The position numbers were made by a program, and so were the translations under genes. The notes under the pieces are model-generated. The model was not told the origin of the DNA. It did not search any database and saw only the letters and a list, made by a program, of their open reading frames with translations. A DNA stretch of 22,819 nucleotides from a virus. Positions 1,453 to 22,648 of the stretch are shown here, in pieces; position 1 is the first letter of the stretch; the number at the start of each line of letters is the position of its first letter. The stretch spans positions 1-22,819 of IMG/VR virus record IMGVR_UViG_3300025769_000908; one strand, given 5' to 3'.

Positions 1453-3102
1453 CTATATCCACCTATCGTCTCTTGATTGTCTGCCTATGGTATGTTCCAT
1501 AAATCTCTCTAAATCTTTGTTAATCAAATCATCTTTATGTTGGTCAAAAGCTAGAGTTTGGTCTCTGTCAATTCTCTCAACCCAATAGTTAGCCGCAATA
1601 GCTAAAGCATCTATTTGGTCATCATGTCTTAACGCACCCTTCTCTCTTGTTATTCTAGTCATCTGTCTGAATAATTGGTGGTCAGGGTCTAGTTTAAAGT
1701 CTTCTTTGACGAGTAATTCATCAATAACAAGCCTATGAGTATTCATAATAGGCTCTAATGTGTCTATAATTCTCTTCTCTTTTTGAATATTATGTCTTAC
1801 TTCTTCTATTTCACATGGGTGTATCTTAGCCATAACAGGTTTTAGTAAGGCTGTAGCCATACCATCACCAAAGTTACTCTCGATAACCACATGATTTACT
1901 TTGTTTCTTTTAGCAATGTTAGATAATTTCTCTAATACAGTATCAGAATAACCACCTTCTAATGCTCCTATGTCTGTTAAATACAGAACACCATGTAACA
2001 TTTTAAGAACAGCATACGCTGTCTTATCTGCACCACGACCTGAAGGGTCAATAGACATAGCTACACCTTCAAATGGTGTAAACTCTTCTGACATATACAG
2101 AGGAGACGTCCAATAATCACCTTTAAGTCCAACATTAGGTAACTCAGGGTCAACCGCTTTTATTTGGTCTTGTCCTGAAGCCCATTGTATCTTAGCAGGA
2201 GCTTCTTCCCATGTAGAGCAACCTGATACAGTTATTAAATCATTAAGTTTAAGAGGGTGTTTGTTTGCATCAGATAAAGAAGTATCTAACATAAACTGTA
2301 AGTTAAACCCTGAACGACCATAAGAACTTAATCGTTCCATCAAATCTATTTCATTAAACCTGTTAGGGTCTGTAGGTTTACCTTCTTTGTCTGTAACCTC
2401 ATTAATAATTGGTGCTATCTTATGCCCATATCCTACAGTTTGTACTTTATCAGGATATAAAGCTGTCCATATTCTAGTTTTAAAGCCACGCTCTTCTAAA
2501 TCATTATATAATGACATTTCAGTTTGCGGTGTTCCTAGAAATACAATTCTACCAACTTTAGGTTTTATGATTGCATCAAATTCTTTTACTGTTTCACCTA
2601 ATCTGTCTCTCATTAGTTGTGTTTGAGAGTTATTAGCTGACTCAACGTCATCAGCAATAATTAAGTCTGCTCTTGAACCTGTAAGCTGTCCTGTAATACC
2701 CATAGATTTAACTGAGGGTGCATGTGAAGCTAATGCAGGTGCAACATCAAAGCTAACTTTACTTTGTCGTTGTTCATTTCTAGGCTGTAAGTGTTGTAAT
2801 AGTGGCATCTCAGCTATGAGACGCTGTGTAAATGTACTAAAGTCATCTGCTCTACTTTTACTTGCAGATACAACCAAGATATTTCTTTGAGGATTTAATA
2901 ATAGTTGGTGACAAACAAATGCACTTGTAATCCAAGATTTACCTACACCTCTAAATGCTTCTATAACTATTCTTTTCTCATCTGATTGCAGATAATCAGC
3001 TATGTCATATTGTATGGGTGTTGGTTCAGGTAAGTTTAAATGTTTCCAACATAAGTATAAAAAGTTTTTAAAATTCTTTATACGTTTATCCTTCAGTGTC
3101 AT
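1453..3102 (-). CDS. terL: Terminase large subunit (T7 gp19-like packaging ATPase/nuclease)
   Basis: The large terminase drives DNA translocation into the prohead and cuts concatemers. The longest open frame begins at 3138 with TTG; I prefer the ATG at 3102 (residue 13 of that frame) because GAGGA lies 8 bases before it. This gives 549 residues. In the longer numbering, the Walker A motif (FRGVGKS) is at 62-68, Walker B (LIIADDVE) at 159-166 and the coupling motif LGTPQTE at 201-207. The RNase H-like nuclease has acidic residues at Asp364 (SIDPSGRG), Glu420 (VVIESNFGDG) and the RHDDQIDALA motif at 504-513. Length and motifs match T7 gp19 (586 aa). The start overlaps the small terminase gene by 17 bases, as expected for a coupled terminase pair. 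Confidence 0.95.
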   Translation of the reverse strand: MTLKDKRIKNFKNFLYLCWKHLNLPEPTPIQYDIADYLQSDEKRIVIEAFRGVGKSWITSAFVCHQLLLNPQRNILVVSASKSRADDFSTFTQRLIAEMPLLQHLQPRNEQRQSKVSFDVAPALASHAPSVKSMGITGQLTGSRADLIIADDVESANNSQTQLMRDRLGETVKEFDAIIKPKVGRIVFLGTPQTEMSLYNDLEERGFKTRIWTALYPDKVQTVGYGHKIAPIINEVTDKEGKPTDPNRFNEIDLMERLSSYGRSGFNLQFMLDTSLSDANKHPLKLNDLITVSGCSTWEEAPAKIQWASGQDQIKAVDPELPNVGLKGDYWTSPLYMSEEFTPFEGVAMSIDPSGRGADKTAYAVLKMLHGVLYLTDIGALEGGYSDTVLEKLSNIAKRNKVNHVVIESNFGDGMATALLKPVMAKIHPCEIEEVRHNIQKEKRIIDTLEPIMNTHRLVIDELLVKEDFKLDPDHQLFRQMTRITREKGALRHDDQIDALAIAANYWVERIDRDQTLAFDQHKDDLINKDLERFMEHTIGRQSRDDRWI

Positions 3103-3313
3103 AAGGTAAGTCCTCAAGTATATTCTTAGCTTTCTCAACTATAGTTTCACTACTGTATGTTTTACATACGTCTAAACACACTTTCATTTCTGAAGCTGTT
3201 AGGTCTTCACCTGAAGTTAGTTTTTTGTAGGCTTGTGTGACTAATAGAACAGGTAACTCTTCTATTATCTTTTCTATGTTTGGTTTTACTTGTGGATTTT
3301 CCTTTTCATTCAT
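3086..3313 (-). CDS. terS: Terminase small subunit (T7 gp18-like)
   Basis: This 75-residue, mostly helical protein lies directly upstream of and overlaps the large terminase, the position of T7 gene 18 (89 aa). The segment LTASEMKVCLDVCKTY resembles the short helix seen in T7-type small terminases. No DNA-binding motif is obvious, so the call rests on size, position and this partial resemblance. Its ATG overlaps the stop of the preceding 39-codon gene (TAATG). Its own ribosome site is weak (GGAATAA, rather far upstream), which suggests translation by coupling. Confidence 0.75.
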   Translation of the reverse strand: MNEKENPQVKPNIEKIIEELPVLLVTQAYKKLTSGEDLTASEMKVCLDVCKTYSSETIVEKAKNILEDLPYDTEG

Positions 3314-3432
3314 TAAAAGATGTTATTCCAAAGAATAACTAGCAGGATAATACCTACACCTATTAAAAAACGTCTAAAATTTTTGTTTAAACCTTTCCAT
3401 GAATATTTAAACTCGTCTAAAAAATTTTGCAT
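3313..3432 (-). CDS. 39-residue single-span membrane peptide
   Basis: This small frame reads MQNFLDEFKYSWKGLNKNF, then a basic FRRF turn, then a hydrophobic span (about residues 23-36, LIGVGIILLVILW) ending NNIF. It is supported by an AAGGGA ribosome site 7 bases before the ATG, a start that directly follows the stop of the preceding frame, and a stop that overlaps the start of terS (TAATG). The topology would be N-terminus in the cytoplasm with a C-terminal membrane anchor. In T7 the holin gene 17.5 sits just before gene 18, so a role in lysis timing is possible, but the protein is shorter than known T7-type holins. A better holin candidate lies three genes upstream, so this could be an antiholin or accessory peptide. 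Confidence 0.65.
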   Translation of the reverse strand: MQNFLDEFKYSWKGLNKNFRRFLIGVGIILLVILWNNIF

Positions 3433-3483
3433 TTAGTATCCCTTTGGTTTCGGTTTTGGTTTCGGTTTTGGTTTTTTTGGCAT
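3433..3483 (-). CDS. 16-residue Lys-Pro repeat micropeptide (candidate)
   Basis: The frame encodes MPKKPKPKPKPKPKGY. It has its own AAAGGA ribosome site 7 bases before the ATG. The ATG is one base after the stop of the upstream 49-codon gene, and its TAA is immediately followed by the ATG of the membrane peptide. The spacing on both sides is that of a real operon gene. The product is extremely basic and would be an extended polyproline-type rod; it could bind nucleic acid or anionic envelope. One caution is that its last codons supply the AAGGGA ribosome site of the next gene, so the frame could exist mainly to couple translation. No function is known to me. Confidence 0.5.
   Translation of the reverse strand: MPKKPKPKPKPKPKGY
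3444..3478. repeat. Short tandem repeat encoding Lys-Pro
   Basis: On the plus strand the unit GGTTTC/GGTTTT alternates (12-base period) across this stretch. Read on the minus strand it gives alternating CCA/CCG and AAA codons, that is Pro-Lys. Such a run is prone to slippage, so the number of Lys-Pro units may vary between related phages. Confidence 0.6.
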
Positions 3484-3484
3484 G

Positions 3485-3634
3485 TTATTTTCCTTTCGCA
3501 GTTTTAGCCGCTCTTTTAAAATTTGCGGCGGTAGGAGAACCTTTTGTTCCAACTTTTCTCATTCTTTCATTACTACCAGACGCAATTCTTTTACGTTTAG
3601 CGTGAATGTTTGCATATAATCCTTTTTTAGTCAT
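3485..3634 (-). CDS. Small basic conserved phage protein, 49 residues
   Basis: The protein begins MTKKGLYANIHAKRKRIASG and continues with ERMRKVGTKGSPTAANFKRAAKTAKGK. It is strongly basic, with no acidic residue other than one Glu and no membrane segment. The KGLYANIHAKRKRI...MRK.G.KG.PT pattern is one I associate with small proteins near the packaging and structural genes of marine phages, without a known function. The ATG overlaps the stop of the holin gene (TAATG). Its charge suggests binding to DNA or RNA, perhaps as a minor packaged protein, but this is inference. Confidence 0.75.
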   Translation of the reverse strand: MTKKGLYANIHAKRKRIASGSNERMRKVGTKGSPTAANFKRAAKTAKGK

Positions 3635-4044
3635 TACTTTGTTAGTCCTTTCGATTTTTCAAAACTTCTCATTCCTGCAACACCCAACATTGAAGTGACT
3701 ATTGCTAGAAGCGAACCAGTTTCTATATTAGGAGCAGTTATTTCTAATCCTGAAAATTTTGCGTACCATTCTATTGAAGGTGAAAGTATAAACTCAAACA
3801 TTAAAGCAAAGCCGCCTACCCAACCGATTGCAGGTCTCCAACCGCTCACAAATATTGACCTGTGACCTGCTTCGACTTTATTTACATCTAATTGTTTTTC
3901 AGCTAACTTTTGCTGAATACGTTGCATTAATATTTTTTTATCTAGTTTCTCATCTTCTGAGGTATGGATTTCGTCAACTACTTTTGCAATAGTTTTTAAA
4001 GCTCCATCTTTACCCCCTAATAAACTTCCTATTACTTGGAGCAT
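3634..4044 (-). CDS. Holin, 3TM gene-transfer-agent type
   Basis: This 136-residue protein has an N-terminal hydrophobic/amphipathic helix (residues 1-12), a charged helical region (25-57) and the motif EAGHRSIFVSGWRPAIGWVGG (58-78). That motif leads into a membrane span (about 72-92). A second span is at about 109-126, followed by a basic tail. The HRSIFVSGWRP motif is characteristic of the family described as holin of 3TMs for gene-transfer release. Such proteins are thought to permeabilise the inner membrane and let the cytoplasmic lysozyme reach the wall; the GH24 enzyme at 535-945 needs such a partner. The start overlaps the upstream gene by 13 bases and has no clear ribosome site, so translation is probably coupled. 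Confidence 0.8.
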   Translation of the reverse strand: MLQVIGSLLGGKDGALKTIAKVVDEIHTSEDEKLDKKILMQRIQQKLAEKQLDVNKVEAGHRSIFVSGWRPAIGWVGGFALMFEFILSPSIEWYAKFSGLEITAPNIETGSLLAIVTSMLGVAGMRSFEKSKGLTK

Positions 4045-4163
4045 GAGCCACAGCCGCAGTTACATTTATTCTTTTTTACTAAGAAAAGTAACACTACTAA
4101 TATTATTAAGTTTAATGCTGAAATATCGTTCATTAATAAACTCCCTATTTGGTCTGTTTTCAT
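4032..4163 (-). CDS. Small membrane peptide with Cys-rich tail
   Basis: The 43-residue form starts at an ATG two bases after the upstream stop, with an AGGAT ribosome site. A second in-frame ATG at 4133 has an even better site (AGGGAG, 7 bases away) and would give 33 residues. The GTG at 4226 that opens the longest frame is unlikely. A hydrophobic segment (NLIILVVLLFLV) is followed by KKNKCNCGCGSCSK. Four cysteines within nine residues could bind metal or form disulfides, depending on which side the tail faces; the positive-inside rule would put the KKNK-containing tail in the cytoplasm. It lies among the holin and coiled-coil membrane genes, so a role in lysis control is plausible. No family recognised. 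Confidence 0.6.
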   Translation of the reverse strand: MKTDQIGSLLMNDISALNLIILVVLLFLVKKNKCNCGCGSCSK

Positions 4164-4165
4164 TT

Positions 4166-4366
4166 CTATCCTATCTTTAAAATTTTCATTATTGTCCAAA
4201 TTGCGGCGGTAGCCGCCCCTATCCACATGACTGCTTTAATGCTACCTTTTCCAGTAGCCAATTCTTGTTTGAGAGATTGGATAGCACTCCTATTTTCCTT
4301 AACTTCTATCTTTATCTCATCTAAGGTTTTTTGTAAGTTACTTACTTGGGTGTTCCAATCACTCAT
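4166..4366 (-). CDS. Coiled-coil protein with C-terminal membrane anchor
   Basis: This 66-residue protein has an N-terminal heptad-rich helix (about residues 5-38, VSNLQKTLDEIKIEVKENR) and a C-terminal hydrophobic span (about 43-62, IKAVMWIGAATAAIWTIMKIL). The layout resembles XhlA-type lysis accessory proteins, which have a cytoplasmic coiled coil and a membrane tail. The ATG overlaps the upstream stop (ATGA), with GGAG ten bases upstream. Its neighbour at 4363-4599 has the reverse order, membrane first and coiled coil second, so the two could pair through their coiled coils or work on opposite faces of the membrane. Confidence 0.7.
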   Translation of the reverse strand: MSDWNTQVSNLQKTLDEIKIEVKENRSAIQSLKQELATGKGSIKAVMWIGAATAAIWTIMKILKIG

Positions 4367-4599
4367 TCTCTGTAATCTCCATCAATCTCTAAACGTAGAG
4401 ATTTTATTTTATAATTTAATTCTAATATTTCTTGTTTTAAGGTTAGTACATTTTGATTTTCTTGTATGGTTACAATATCGTCTTTCATTATAGAAAAATC
4501 TTTCCATAATTGACCTACAATAAATACGTTAGCTACTAATGTTGAAAGTAATCCTGTTATTATAAGTATTGTTTTTAAATTAACATCTACTTGTGCCAT
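4363..4599 (-). CDS. Membrane protein with C-terminal coiled coil (i-spanin-like topology)
   Basis: The 78-residue product has one N-terminal hydrophobic span (about residues 9-30, LKTILIITGLLSTLVANVFIVG) and then a coiled-coil region (about 38-72, with IQENQNVLTLKQEILELNYKIKSLRLE). With the N-terminus inside, the coiled coil would lie in the periplasm, as in inner-membrane spanin (Rz) subunits, although it is shorter than T7 gp18.5 (143 aa). No lipoprotein (outer spanin) partner was found nearby. It overlaps the cysteine-rich micro-ORF upstream by 13 bases and the next gene by 4. Function uncertain; a lysis accessory role is an inference from context. Confidence 0.65.
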   Translation of the reverse strand: MAQVDVNLKTILIITGLLSTLVANVFIVGQLWKDFSIMKDDIVTIQENQNVLTLKQEILELNYKIKSLRLEIDGDYRE

Positions 4600-9086: not shown

Positions 9087-10661
9087 TTATCCTAATGCTA
9101 TTGCGAATGGGATACTGTTATCCGTTGCCGCAATGGTTAAAGTTTCATTACTTCCATTATTATTCTCAGTGAAAGTAACATTCGTACCTGCTACAAGTTT
9201 ACCATTTAAGAAACCTGCTGTGGTGTCGTTAGATGATACTTTAGAAGTCTCATCTGTGTTTACTCCAACAGAAGACCAAGCACTTCCATTGTAATATTTT
9301 AAAGCGTTAGATGAAGTATTATAAACTAAGTCACCTTCATCTAAGGAAGATGTAGGGTCACTTGAGTCTACTCTATATCTATCAGCAAAACTATTTACGC
9401 CACTAATATTAGAGGCTACTGTATTGACATTAGCTATCGCACCGCCAACTGTGTTAACATTAGCGATTGCTCCGCCAACTGTATTGACGTTAGCGATTGA
9501 ACCTGCCACTAAATCTATTTCTGAACTTGCCTCAGCTAAATCATCAGCTACAGCTTCTATTTCTGTTAGTTTATTTTCTACTGCCGCTACATCTGCTGAT
9601 ATTCCTGCCACCGCAGTTATATCACTAGAAATACCTGCTAGAGTTGTAATATTTGAATTTTGACCTGCTACTGTATTTATATTAGTAGCATTTGAATTGA
9701 CTGTATTAATTGCTGTTTGGTCTGAAGATGTTGGCGTTGTTCTAAGCCATGTTGTATTACCTAAGTCATACACCATCATCACATTATTTGTTGTATTAAA
9801 ATATAATGCACCATCAATTAAAGTTGCACCATCATTGTCAACTGAAGGATTTGAAGCCTTAGCTCCTAAATATCTGTCATCAAAGCTATCATAACTAGCC
9901 GCCGCAGATGTTGCTGAAGAAGCCGCATTAGTAGCTTGTGTTGACGCTGTACTAGCGGAACTAGCCGCCGCCGTAGCTGACGTACTTGCTTCACTAGCTT
10001 TTGTGGTAGCTGTCGAAGCTGATGTACTTGCTTCAGAGGCTTTTGTTGTAGCTGTTGAAGCTGAAGTCGAAGCTGAAGTAGCTGACGTACTAGCCTCACT
10101 AGCTTTAGTTGTCGCTGTAGAAGCTGAAGTCGAAGCACTTGTAGCACTTGTAGCCGCCGCCGTAGCTGAACTTGCCGCCGCAGTCGCTTGAGTTGTTGCT
10201 TGATTTACTTGTGAAGTAGCCGCCGTATCAACATAATTCTTTGTTGCGGCGTCTTGTGCTGACGTAGGGTCTACAACATTTCTTAATTTTTTAGTACCTA
10301 CATCATATTGAAAGTCTGAGTTTGATATTTTGATAACATCATCTGCGTCATCAATAGCTTCCTGAGACATAAAGAAACCTTGATTAGAGTCTGTATCTAA
10401 ATCATTTTCTGTTAATACTGAGCCTGAAGCATAATCTACTAATTTTGTTCCTTGACTTGTTGTACGCCTAATTTCAATAGCGGCACTATTAGCAGGAGCG
10501 GAACTAAAGGTAATTGTCGTACCTGCACCATTCCAACTAAAAGCTGTTGTAGCTGAACCTGCTACAGTAACAGTAATATCTGCTTGGTCTCTGTAACTAA
10601 AAGGTACAGAATACGCAGTTGTACTGCCGTTACCAGTGTAACGTACAAAACTATTAGCCAT
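9087..10661 (-). CDS. Tail fibre protein (T7 gp17-like N-terminal domain)
   Basis: Residues 1-145 match the T7 tail fibre N-terminal domain that docks the fibre to the tail, with FVRYTGNGSTTAYSVPFSYR and the IRRTTSQGTKLVDYASGSVL motif. Residues of about 150-250 form a Ser/Ala/Thr-rich region with 14-residue repeats (SASTATTKASEAST), probably a triple coiled coil. A DDRYLGAKASNP...GALYFNTTNN module follows (about 258-305). After more coiled coil with three copies of AIANVNTVGG (about 384-413) comes a second, related DRYRVDSSDP...GDLVYNTSSNA module (about 425-460). It lacks a long receptor-binding tip, so downstream fibre-like proteins may provide it. AAAGGA precedes the ATG by 5 bases. Confidence 0.9.
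   Translation of the reverse strand: MANSFVRYTGNGSTTAYSVPFSYRDQADITVTVAGSATTAFSWNGAGTTITFSSAPANSAAIEIRRTTSQGTKLVDYASGSVLTENDLDTDSNQGFFMSQEAIDDADDVIKISNSDFQYDVGTKKLRNVVDPTSAQDAATKNYVDTAATSQVNQATTQATAAASSATAAATSATSASTSASTATTKASEASTSATSASTSASTATTKASEASTSASTATTKASEASTSATAAASSASTASTQATNAASSATSAAASYDSFDDRYLGAKASNPSVDNDGATLIDGALYFNTTNNVMMVYDLGNTTWLRTTPTSSDQTAINTVNSNATNINTVAGQNSNITTLAGISSDITAVAGISADVAAVENKLTEIEAVADDLAEASSEIDLVAGSIANVNTVGGAIANVNTVGGAIANVNTVASNISGVNSFADRYRVDSSDPTSSLDEGDLVYNTSSNALKYYNGSAWSSVGVNTDETSKVSSNDTTAGFLNGKLVAGTNVTFTENNNGSNETLTIAATDNSIPFAIALG
9421..9510. repeat. Three 30-base repeats within tail fibre gene
   Basis: Three adjacent 30-base units (9421-9450, 9451-9480, 9481-9510) encode copies of a ten-residue IANVNTVGGA motif in the fibre; the third copy is diverged (IANVNTVGGA becomes AGSIANVNTV). 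The DNA units differ at several positions, mostly synonymous, so the repeat is old enough to have drifted while the protein periodicity was kept. Confidence 0.75.
9979..10125. repeat. 42-base repeats encoding the Ala/Ser/Thr coiled region
   Basis: Three copies of a 42-base unit lie at 9979-10020, 10021-10062 and 10084-10125, with a 21-base insertion between the second and third. Each encodes a SASTATTKASEAST segment of the fibre. Recombination between the units would change the shaft length. The opposite strand and other frames stay open here because of the low complexity, which produces spurious open frames. Confidence 0.75.
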
Positions 10662-20799: not shown

Positions 20800-21780
20800 T
20801 TACGCTTCTTTAATACCTACAGCCGCTTCAGGTCTTAGGACGCCATGTCCCATTGCGTATTTAGCAACCATTAATGTACCTTGACGTCTAATGTCATATT
20901 CCATTTCAGTTGATAAATCCATTAGCTTAACTGTACCTGCCGCACTAGGGTGACAAACTAATGCCACATAGTTAGTTAGGTTTACTGCTTGTGGTTTTGA
21001 AGCACCTGCGGTAGCCGAACCTGCGTCTGGTAGAGCAGTTGTAATGTTTGAAGCAACAAAGTGAGGAGTTGGTATTAATTCAATTCCTGCAACTTTAAGA
21101 ACTTTACCTTCAGCAACACCACCATTAGCACCACCACTGAAGTCAACATTGACTGCATTTGTAGCGTTAGCTAATTTGTAGTATTCTTCTAATCTTATGA
21201 ACGCTTTTCTACCTTCTTTTGGAACATAGTGAGAGTCTAAGTTAGAAGCGGCGTCAAACAATGAGTCAATCATTGCGTTTGCCGCAGTTGCCGCAGTAGC
21301 AGAAGCGATACTTGCATTAGTTAATACTGTACCTGCGTCTCCGCCTGTTACGTTGGTAGCCGCCTGAGCCGCTTGACCGATAGTTTGTAATACATGCTTA
21401 TCTTTTTGGAAAGCCAAAGCTCTACCAATTTCTGTAGAGTAAGCACTTCTTACGTCCCAGTGATTCTTAGCTTCTTCAATGTTGCTAAGGAATACTGAGC
21501 TTAATAGTAAGTCATTAATTGTAATGACTTTTTCGTTGTGGTTTACGTCACTTCCTGTGATTTCCGCACCTGCTGTGTGATAAGCCGCCGCTACTCTACC
21601 CATTACTGGAAAAGTTGCTGACTTACCATTAGAGATAGAACGAACCATCTCTGCACCTGCTGTTACTGAAGCCTGTTCAAAAGAAGTTAATACTTCTCCT
21701 GCAAAAACTTTCAGAAATAGGGCGTCCTCTGTACCAGAAGCATTGACTCTGCCCACCGATACTGGTGTTGCATTTGCCAT
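20800..21780 (-). CDS. Major capsid protein (T7 gp10-like)
   Basis: The 326-residue protein matches T7 gp10A (345 aa) in order and sequence character. N-terminal features include LFLKVFAGEVLTSFEQASVT and MVRSISNGKSATFPVMGRVA, followed by HNEKVITINDLLLSSVFLSN, all typical of podovirus HK97-fold capsids. It assembles on the scaffold encoded just upstream. It has a strong AAAGGAG ribosome site 6 bases before the ATG and a GC-rich terminator downstream, consistent with very high expression. No convincing frameshift site for a longer 10B-like form was found. Confidence 0.95.
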   Translation of the reverse strand: MANATPVSVGRVNASGTEDALFLKVFAGEVLTSFEQASVTAGAEMVRSISNGKSATFPVMGRVAAAYHTAGAEITGSDVNHNEKVITINDLLLSSVFLSNIEEAKNHWDVRSAYSTEIGRALAFQKDKHVLQTIGQAAQAATNVTGGDAGTVLTNASIASATAATAANAMIDSLFDAASNLDSHYVPKEGRKAFIRLEEYYKLANATNAVNVDFSGGANGGVAEGKVLKVAGIELIPTPHFVASNITTALPDAGSATAGASKPQAVNLTNYVALVCHPSAAGTVKLMDLSTEMEYDIRRQGTLMVAKYAMGHGVLRPEAAVGIKEA

Positions 21781-21804
21781 TTTAGTCTCCTTTGTTAAGG
21801 TTAT

Positions 21805-21897
21805 TTAAGAAAGCCTTACATGTTCAGTTTCATAATCAAGATTGTCCTCCGCAAAGGGTAAAGTTAATTCACTTATTATGTTCGGCAGTTGCCACAT
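21805..21897 (-). CDS. Candidate 30-residue acidic peptide between scaffold and capsid
   Basis: An ATG at 21897 opens a frame of 30 codons ending with TAA at 21805. The peptide begins MWQLPNIISELTLPFAEDNL and continues with DYETEHVRLS. It looks protein-like: acidic, with an amphipathic start. It fills most of the 133-base gap between the scaffold stop and the capsid start. Against it, no Shine-Dalgarno sequence lies at the right distance, although the scaffold stop is only 16 bases upstream and re-initiation is possible. It may instead be the leader region that carries a late promoter. Confidence 0.35.
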   Translation of the reverse strand: MWQLPNIISELTLPFAEDNLDYETEHVRLS

Positions 21898-21913
21898 ATA
21901 CCATGTCGCACAA

Positions 21914-22648
21914 CTATATTTTACTGTTAGCTAGTTTTGCTTTCACATCTGCTTGATAAGCAGGGTCACTCGCATATCTACTATCATTCATTGCAGTTGT
22001 AACTTCAGCCCATGAACGATAACCTTGTTCGCTAGTTGCTGACGTCTTACCTTGTACTAAACTTGGTTCAGTGCCATTAGCTTGTTCATATTTTGCTTTA
22101 AGTCCTTCTACTGCTAACTTAATAGTATCCATGTCTCTACTATTAACAGCTTGATTATATGCCTTCTTCTCGCCTTCAGTCATATTACTTGCCGCCCAGT
22201 CAGACATATTTTTATAGGCGTCATCACCACCTACAATACTTTTAACTTCGCTTTGTTGTTGAGTTGCAAGAGCTTGTTGCCCTTGTATAAAAGCGTCAAC
22301 ATAATCTTTTGGTATTCCTGCTTTCTCTAAAGACTCGTAAGAGCTATCATCTAGTTTACCATTTTCATTATATTGTGATTGTAAATTACTCATATCTAAA
22401 CCTGCGTTCTCTACAGCTTTTTCAGCTATCTCTAATGACTCTTCAGATTTAGTTTCTTCTTTCTTAGTTTCTTCTTTAGGAGCTTCTTCTTTTGGCTGTC
22501 CTAATTTTGTTTCTAATTCTCCATAGGCTTTAGCCATATCTTCAGGTGAATTAAATTTTTCAGGTAGCCACTCAGGTCTATCTGATTTTTCTTCGACTGG
22601 TTTTTCAGCCGTAGTTTCTTCTTGTTTTATTTCTACTTGTTCTACCAT
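21914..22648 (-). CDS. Capsid scaffolding protein (T7 gp9-like)
   Basis: This 244-residue, very acidic protein is rich in Glu, Lys and Gln (for example PKEEAPKEETKKEETKSEES at about 52-71). It has the short segment DRPEWLPEKFNSPEDMAKAY at 23-42, which recurs in podovirus scaffold proteins, and a basic C-terminal helix that should contact capsid. It is the assembly scaffold of the prohead and leaves before maturation. The ATG overlaps the portal stop (TAATG). Its place between portal and capsid is that of T7 gene 9. Confidence 0.9.
   Translation of the reverse strand: MVEQVEIKQEETTAEKPVEEKSDRPEWLPEKFNSPEDMAKAYGELETKLGQPKEEAPKEETKKEETKSEESLEIAEKAVENAGLDMSNLQSQYNENGKLDDSSYESLEKAGIPKDYVDAFIQGQQALATQQQSEVKSIVGGDDAYKNMSDWAASNMTEGEKKAYNQAVNSRDMDTIKLAVEGLKAKYEQANGTEPSLVQGKTSATSEQGYRSWAEVTTAMNDSRYASDPAYQADVKAKLANSKI

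Follow-up and report, generated by a model that had tools for sequence, protein, structure and literature searches.

An overlooked lysine-proline repeat micropeptide gene among the late genes of marine phages

A reading frame of 16 codons, made up almost wholly of alternating lysine and proline codons, lies between two small genes of a virus. The question raised by this locus is whether so short a repeat is a gene and, if so, what a free lysine-proline (KP) peptide could do for a phage. The window, meaning the whole stretch of DNA analysed, is a virus contig of 22.8 kb, and the nearest relatives with annotation are Autographiviridae that infect Pelagibacter. The transcribed order is three small genes (78, 66 and 43 aa), the holin gene, the gene of a 49-aa PHROG_16028 protein and the KP frame, followed by the genes of a 39-aa transmembrane (TM) protein, a 75-aa protein in the terminase small subunit (TerS) position, the terminase large subunit (TerL), a glucosaminidase and a lysozyme. 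The features of the window are the following.

3433..3483, minus strand: KP micropeptide gene, product MPKKPKPKPKPKPKGY followed by a stop; from translation and nine DNA haplotypes
3439..3444, minus strand: AAGGGA, Shine-Dalgarno-like site of the next gene, in KP codons 14-15 (Lys-Gly); the next ATG stands directly after the TAA
3491..3496, minus strand: AAAGGA, Shine-Dalgarno-like site of the KP gene, from the sequence, within the final codons of the 49-aa gene
3485..3634, minus strand: 49-aa strongly basic protein, net +14, PHROG_16028 (phrog_16028, E 8.8e-26)
3313..3432, minus strand: gene after KP, 39-aa single-TM protein MQNFLDEFKYSW...NNIF, conserved in all TerS-side KP phages
3086..3313, minus strand: 75-aa gene occupying the terminase small subunit position, judged by its place before TerL
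1453..3138, minus strand: terminase large subunit (DNA maturase B), by match to annotated pelagiphage TerL
3634..4044, minus strand: holin of the GTA_holin_3TM family (PF11351, E 1.2e-13; phrog_3427 holin)
21914..22648, minus strand: acidic scaffolding protein, net -19 from its charges (PF05396, E 3.3e-19)
21781..21913, minus strand: empty scaffolding-capsid interval, which holds KP and the 49-aa gene in HTVC109P-type relatives
20800..21780, minus strand: major capsid protein, Gp10A-like (PF21703, E 2e-85)

The 75-aa gene gave no family match in Pfam and PHROG profile searches. Two further genes on the minus strand of the window were recorded: a 43-aa single-TM protein with a conserved Cys-rich tail, KNKCNCGCGSCSK (4032-4172), which is retained in relatives with altered neighbours, and a fibre-like protein with tandem Ser/Thr/Ala repeats, ATTKASEASTSATSASTSAS (9087-10661).

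The KP frame as a gene

The KP frame reads ATG CCA AAA AAA CCA AAA CCG AAA CCA AAA CCG AAA CCA AAG GGA TAC TAA, and its product, nearly all alternating Lys and Pro with a net charge of +7, is probably a polyproline-II rod. The first-pass annotation had described it as a 16-residue ORF with its own AAAGGA, fitted between two genes, and the translation and junctions bear this out. The AAAGGA lies 7 nt ahead of the ATG, the gap to the upstream 49-aa gene (which ends at 3485) is 1 nt, and the 39-aa gene starts at 3432, straight after the TAA with 0 nt between. The expectation of a stiff cationic rod was likewise reasonable; in TonB, such repeats adopt the shape of polyproline-II rods (PMC10771500), and elsewhere they serve as rigid linkers (PMC6988741).

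In 40 Mb of sequence simulated with the dinucleotide composition of the window, (PK)2 was seen 128 times and (PK)3 not once, so five or six PK units are not expected by chance. Replication slippage falls outside such a dinucleotide null and is answered by the variation among relatives, which is synonymous; on both grounds a chance repeat was rejected. The first-pass annotation had also named absence or breakage of the frame in close relatives as fatal to the gene. A short-ORF-aware search of related phages found the frame intact, at the same place, in all close relatives (L006, L009, L010 and L011). The ORF at 3433-3483 is confirmed as a genuine gene that annotation overlooked.

The relatives compared at the DNA level were recovered via the 75-aa gene or the KP pattern. 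The 16-mer has nine DNA versions among them, eight of which give the identical peptide and one (L201) Glu instead of Gly. Counted as minimum changes per site, with sites treated as independent and no tree, the nine haplotypes hold 14 synonymous changes and 1 nonsynonymous change, where about 21-27% of changes are expected to be synonymous without selection (P 5e-9 to 1.5e-7). The Lys codons show three AAA/AAG changes and zero replacements. Judged from these sequences, the KP peptide is conserved while its DNA drifts, in phages of the ocean's commonest bacteria.

We define a KP-repeat phage micropeptide here as a free ORF of at most 26 aa that has a ribosome site to itself and contains three or more alternating Lys-Pro units. 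The ORF of the window has all of these properties, is conserved between phages at the amino-acid level and stands in a head/packaging neighbourhood, as the third gene before TerL.

Distribution, positions and the dual-coded end

The 16-mer is found in four contexts: between the 49-aa and 39-aa genes (the window, L006, L009, L010, L011), between the 66-aa and 43-aa genes (L007, L176, L205), between a homologue of the 49-aa gene and a 41-43-aa gene (L008, L183, L202, L207) and, in the Glu version, between the capsid and tail tubular genes (L201). The PHROG_16028 gene is a frequent partner, adjoining KP in the window, the L008 group, HTVC109P and HTVC309P. The genomes with the second context (contigs of 41.7 and 42.6 kb) yielded no match to PHROG_16028; the partnership of the two genes is therefore not obligatory.

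A whole-record pattern scan covered 16 Pelagibacter-type phage records and one Synechococcus phage. Clean KP micropeptides, both unannotated, were found in the cultured isolates HTVC109P (MPKQKPKPKPKPKPKPSKGY; MH598805.1 19980-20042) and HTVC309P (MPKYKPKYKPKPKPKSKGY; OR420751.1 21539-21598) only; a pattern match in S35-C6 was rejected, as it is not a KP short ORF. In both isolates the gene occupies the scaffold-capsid interval, with 1 nt separating it from the 49-aa gene that follows, and the whole-record scan gave no KP match outside this site. The scaffold-capsid interval is empty (136-141 nt) in the window and in each of the four TerS-side KP contigs in which it was read, and KP lies between the lysis and terminase genes instead. 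The KP gene therefore appears to have moved, and the two patterns point to one KP gene per genome, in one of two late-operon places.

The pair of KP and 49-aa genes was found in about 31 IMG/VR contigs by a targeted scan, and another scan added 3 contigs, about 34 in total. The design of the targeted scan imposes the adjacency in its set, but not the scaffold-capsid position. The peptides of these contigs have 17-24 aa, a variable repeat number and ends in KGY, KRY or KG. The first-pass annotation had asked whether repeat number varies, and in the wider relatives it does, over 16-24 aa. Many relatives have no KP gene, so it is not essential in general. The C-terminal residues of the 79-aa gp32 of HTVC109P, TETETKAETKTKTK, come from the first part of the KP gene read in another frame, so that the two genes overlap within the repeat (MH598805.1 19793-20042; L353 1294-1543). 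A 41-aa protein with the C-terminus KQKPKKPKPKPQY precedes a holin-like gene in L070 (2768-2893), L071, L073, L075 and L081, and its sequence suggests that the KP peptide may be fused to it. Neither this protein, searched against PHROG and Pfam profiles, nor the doubled 16-mer, searched against PHROG profiles, gave a match.

The scaffold-capsid slot was surveyed at 80 loci picked by capsid similarity only, not by KP. The interval before the capsid gene held KP (6 loci), other lysine-rich miniproteins, the 49-aa protein, DUF6321 (PF19846) proteins or nothing; the automatic class of other basic proteins holds some spurious short ORFs, and reliable assignments are those to named recurrent families. 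Taken together, KP or another lysine-rich miniprotein fills the slot in many of the surveyed phages. The PHROG_16028 protein (window 3485-3634) and a DUF6321 protein (L332 854-1099) both match parts of phrog_11180 and phrog_28131; from these matches the two miniproteins appear to be joined into one protein in some phages, a hint that they share a function. Other pelagiphage-like contigs carry a different small basic protein, for example MAKVPKYGAVVDYEKTIKGTSIGRRPNTSSMNKNRRRQGGAKKYRGQGRP, directly before the terminase small subunit position (L028 3856-4002, L064 3862-4014, L044 2388-2543, L066 3632-3742), and that of L028 has a weak phrog_17967 match.

Phages with unrelated terminases also carry KP genes. 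One arrangement runs TerL, 141 aa, KP, small basic protein, about 270 aa and head-tail adaptor, with the peptide MAKRPKPKPKPKPKGY and variants (L249, L423, L467, L487, L489, L495, L499). In outline, the orders around KP are TerL-KP-portal, TerS-KP-TerL (MLKKKPKPKPKPKPKPY; L256, L271) and KP ahead of TerL (L246, L282, L482); some short ORFs with a looser KP pattern are remote from TerL (G055, G060, G062). TerL is no more than 2 kb away in eight clean members, a count that is not a statistic because most of those contigs are short. A restricted-pattern scan of a cellular genome collection of 84,980 species gave one match, MAKKPKPKPKGK, in a Sedimentisphaerales MAG (L606); with this single match, a host gene family as the origin is not evident.

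The end of the KP gene has a second function. In most family members the codons of K-G-Y, K-R-Y or K-E-Y hold AAGGA, AAGG or GAGG, 5-9 nt before the next ATG. The AAAGGA stays where the Tyr codon has been lost (TAT to TAA in L359, L375, L397 and L401), and the Glu variant of L201 keeps the site as AAGGAA. Since the motif outlives both changes, the conserved end is, at least in part, a ribosome site, which leaves the K-P body unaccounted for. The Tyr end as a recognition motif was rejected for KGY, KRY and KEY ends, which the downstream gene's ribosome site largely accounts for; it does not account for KPY and KY ends. A terminal Tyr recurs as KPY or KY, with no embedded ribosome site, in L256, L271, L248 and L246.

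The first-pass annotation had thus been right about sequence and composition; it had missed the head/packaging family, the changed place in the genome and the K-G-Y end as a ribosome site.

Possible roles of the KP peptide

We give about even credence to the reading, drawn from sequence comparison, that the KP peptide is a late-expressed polycation that acts by charge on DNA or on the acidic scaffold in head assembly or packaging. The micropeptide would be produced in quantity alongside the capsid and packaging proteins and would act through its charge, not its shape. It could bind packaged DNA in a protamine-like manner and/or the acidic scaffolding protein, and such binding would aid head assembly or DNA packing; unrelated lysine-rich miniproteins in the same slot of other phages could do the same job. 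An electrostatic role of this kind is best supported because the charge of KP (+7) faces that of the scaffold (-19) and other polycations occupy the same slot; the 49-aa partner has +14. The scaffold-capsid, terminase or portal neighbourhood recurs in most relatives. However, the KP gene of the window itself sits between lysis and terminase genes, some of the looser KP short ORFs are distant from TerL, and the conservation of the KGY end is partly that of a ribosome site. A wider scheme is possible, if somewhat doubtful: marine podoviruses may have a slot for lysine-rich miniproteins and a movable set of these that can stand in for one another, the KP rod being the simplest. The miniproteins would serve as dedicated charge-neutralising cofactors of head assembly or DNA packing and be swapped between phages by sequence-unrelated substitutes.

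Polycations generally bind RNA and DNA, and the 49-aa partner protein is also very basic, so the peptide might act on nucleic acid or on the host (as an RNA chaperone, or a ribosome or nucleoid binder), unrelated to the particle. Such a role is rather unlikely, as the context is repeatedly that of late head/packaging genes, not early genes.

A cationic peptide encoded between the holin and the terminase/endolysin genes, as in the window, could also act at lysis as spanins do, by disrupting the outer membrane. The small genes of the window gave no spanin family match, and the 78-aa TM/coiled-coil gene at 4363-4599 is a candidate for an inner-membrane spanin subunit. The archetype of such lysis peptides, disruptin, is an amphipathic helix, but Pro at every second residue forbids a helix, KP has no hydrophobic face, and its gene is in the head module in most relatives. 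We regard this role as improbable, and less likely than that in head assembly or packing.

Equally improbable is that the ORF serves mainly for translational coupling and as the seat of the next gene's ribosome site, with the peptide a by-product of an unstructured A/C-rich stretch. The AAGGA or GAGG in the last codons of most members, which outlives Tyr loss, fits such a spacer, but third positions are free to change synonymously and the Lys and Pro residues stay constant, the repeat far exceeds the length that a ribosome site needs, and some peptides end in KPY or KY with no embedded site. A DNA element, in which (CCNAAR)n places GG tracts every 6 nt on the opposite strand as a weak G-quadruplex and the peptide is incidental, is very hard to credit: all proline codons do preserve the GG tracts, but the Lys codons, which should then change freely, show AAA/AAG changes and no replacement across the nine haplotypes, and every context preserves the start codon, the ribosome site and the distance to the following gene.

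Significance and comparison with known systems

Head-operon genes of 16-24 codons have been missed by annotation in very abundant ocean phages, even in cultured isolates. They raise a testable question, namely whether tailed phages make polycation peptides dedicated to assembling the capsid or packing the genome, for which the KP rod is a minimal case that is cheap to synthesise and assay. No description of a KP micropeptide was found in open-licence papers. The KP family, its mobility and its dual-coded end appear to be previously undescribed, and small basic phage proteins as such are an already known kind.

The closest likeness in composition is the proline-rich linker of TonB, which shares the alternating Lys-Pro and the expected polyproline-II rod. 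TonB has a TM anchor, a Glu-Pro half and a C-terminal TonB domain, whereas KP is a free 16-aa peptide without these; its ORF is bounded by its own start and stop, with no N-terminal TM segment or C-terminal TonB domain around a linker. The TonB likeness proposed at first thus holds for composition and for nothing beyond it.

Disruptin of phage phiKT (Holt et al. 2022, cited in PMC12819732) is, as the citing paper presents it, also a short cationic phage peptide, and the phage has holin and endolysin genes. By the same account disruptin is an amphipathic helix, whereas the KP repeat, with Pro at every second residue, cannot be one, and its relatives lie in head modules.

The PHROG_16028 49-aa and DUF6321 (PF19846) miniproteins are likewise small and lysine-rich, lie in the same scaffold-capsid interval and are often adjacent to KP, but they are longer and have no sequence homology to the KP repeat.

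Protamine-like proteins and histone H1 tails are polycations, Lys/Pro-rich or basic, which bind DNA through their charge. The KP peptide resembles them in its basic composition, but it is much shorter and its binding to DNA is putative.
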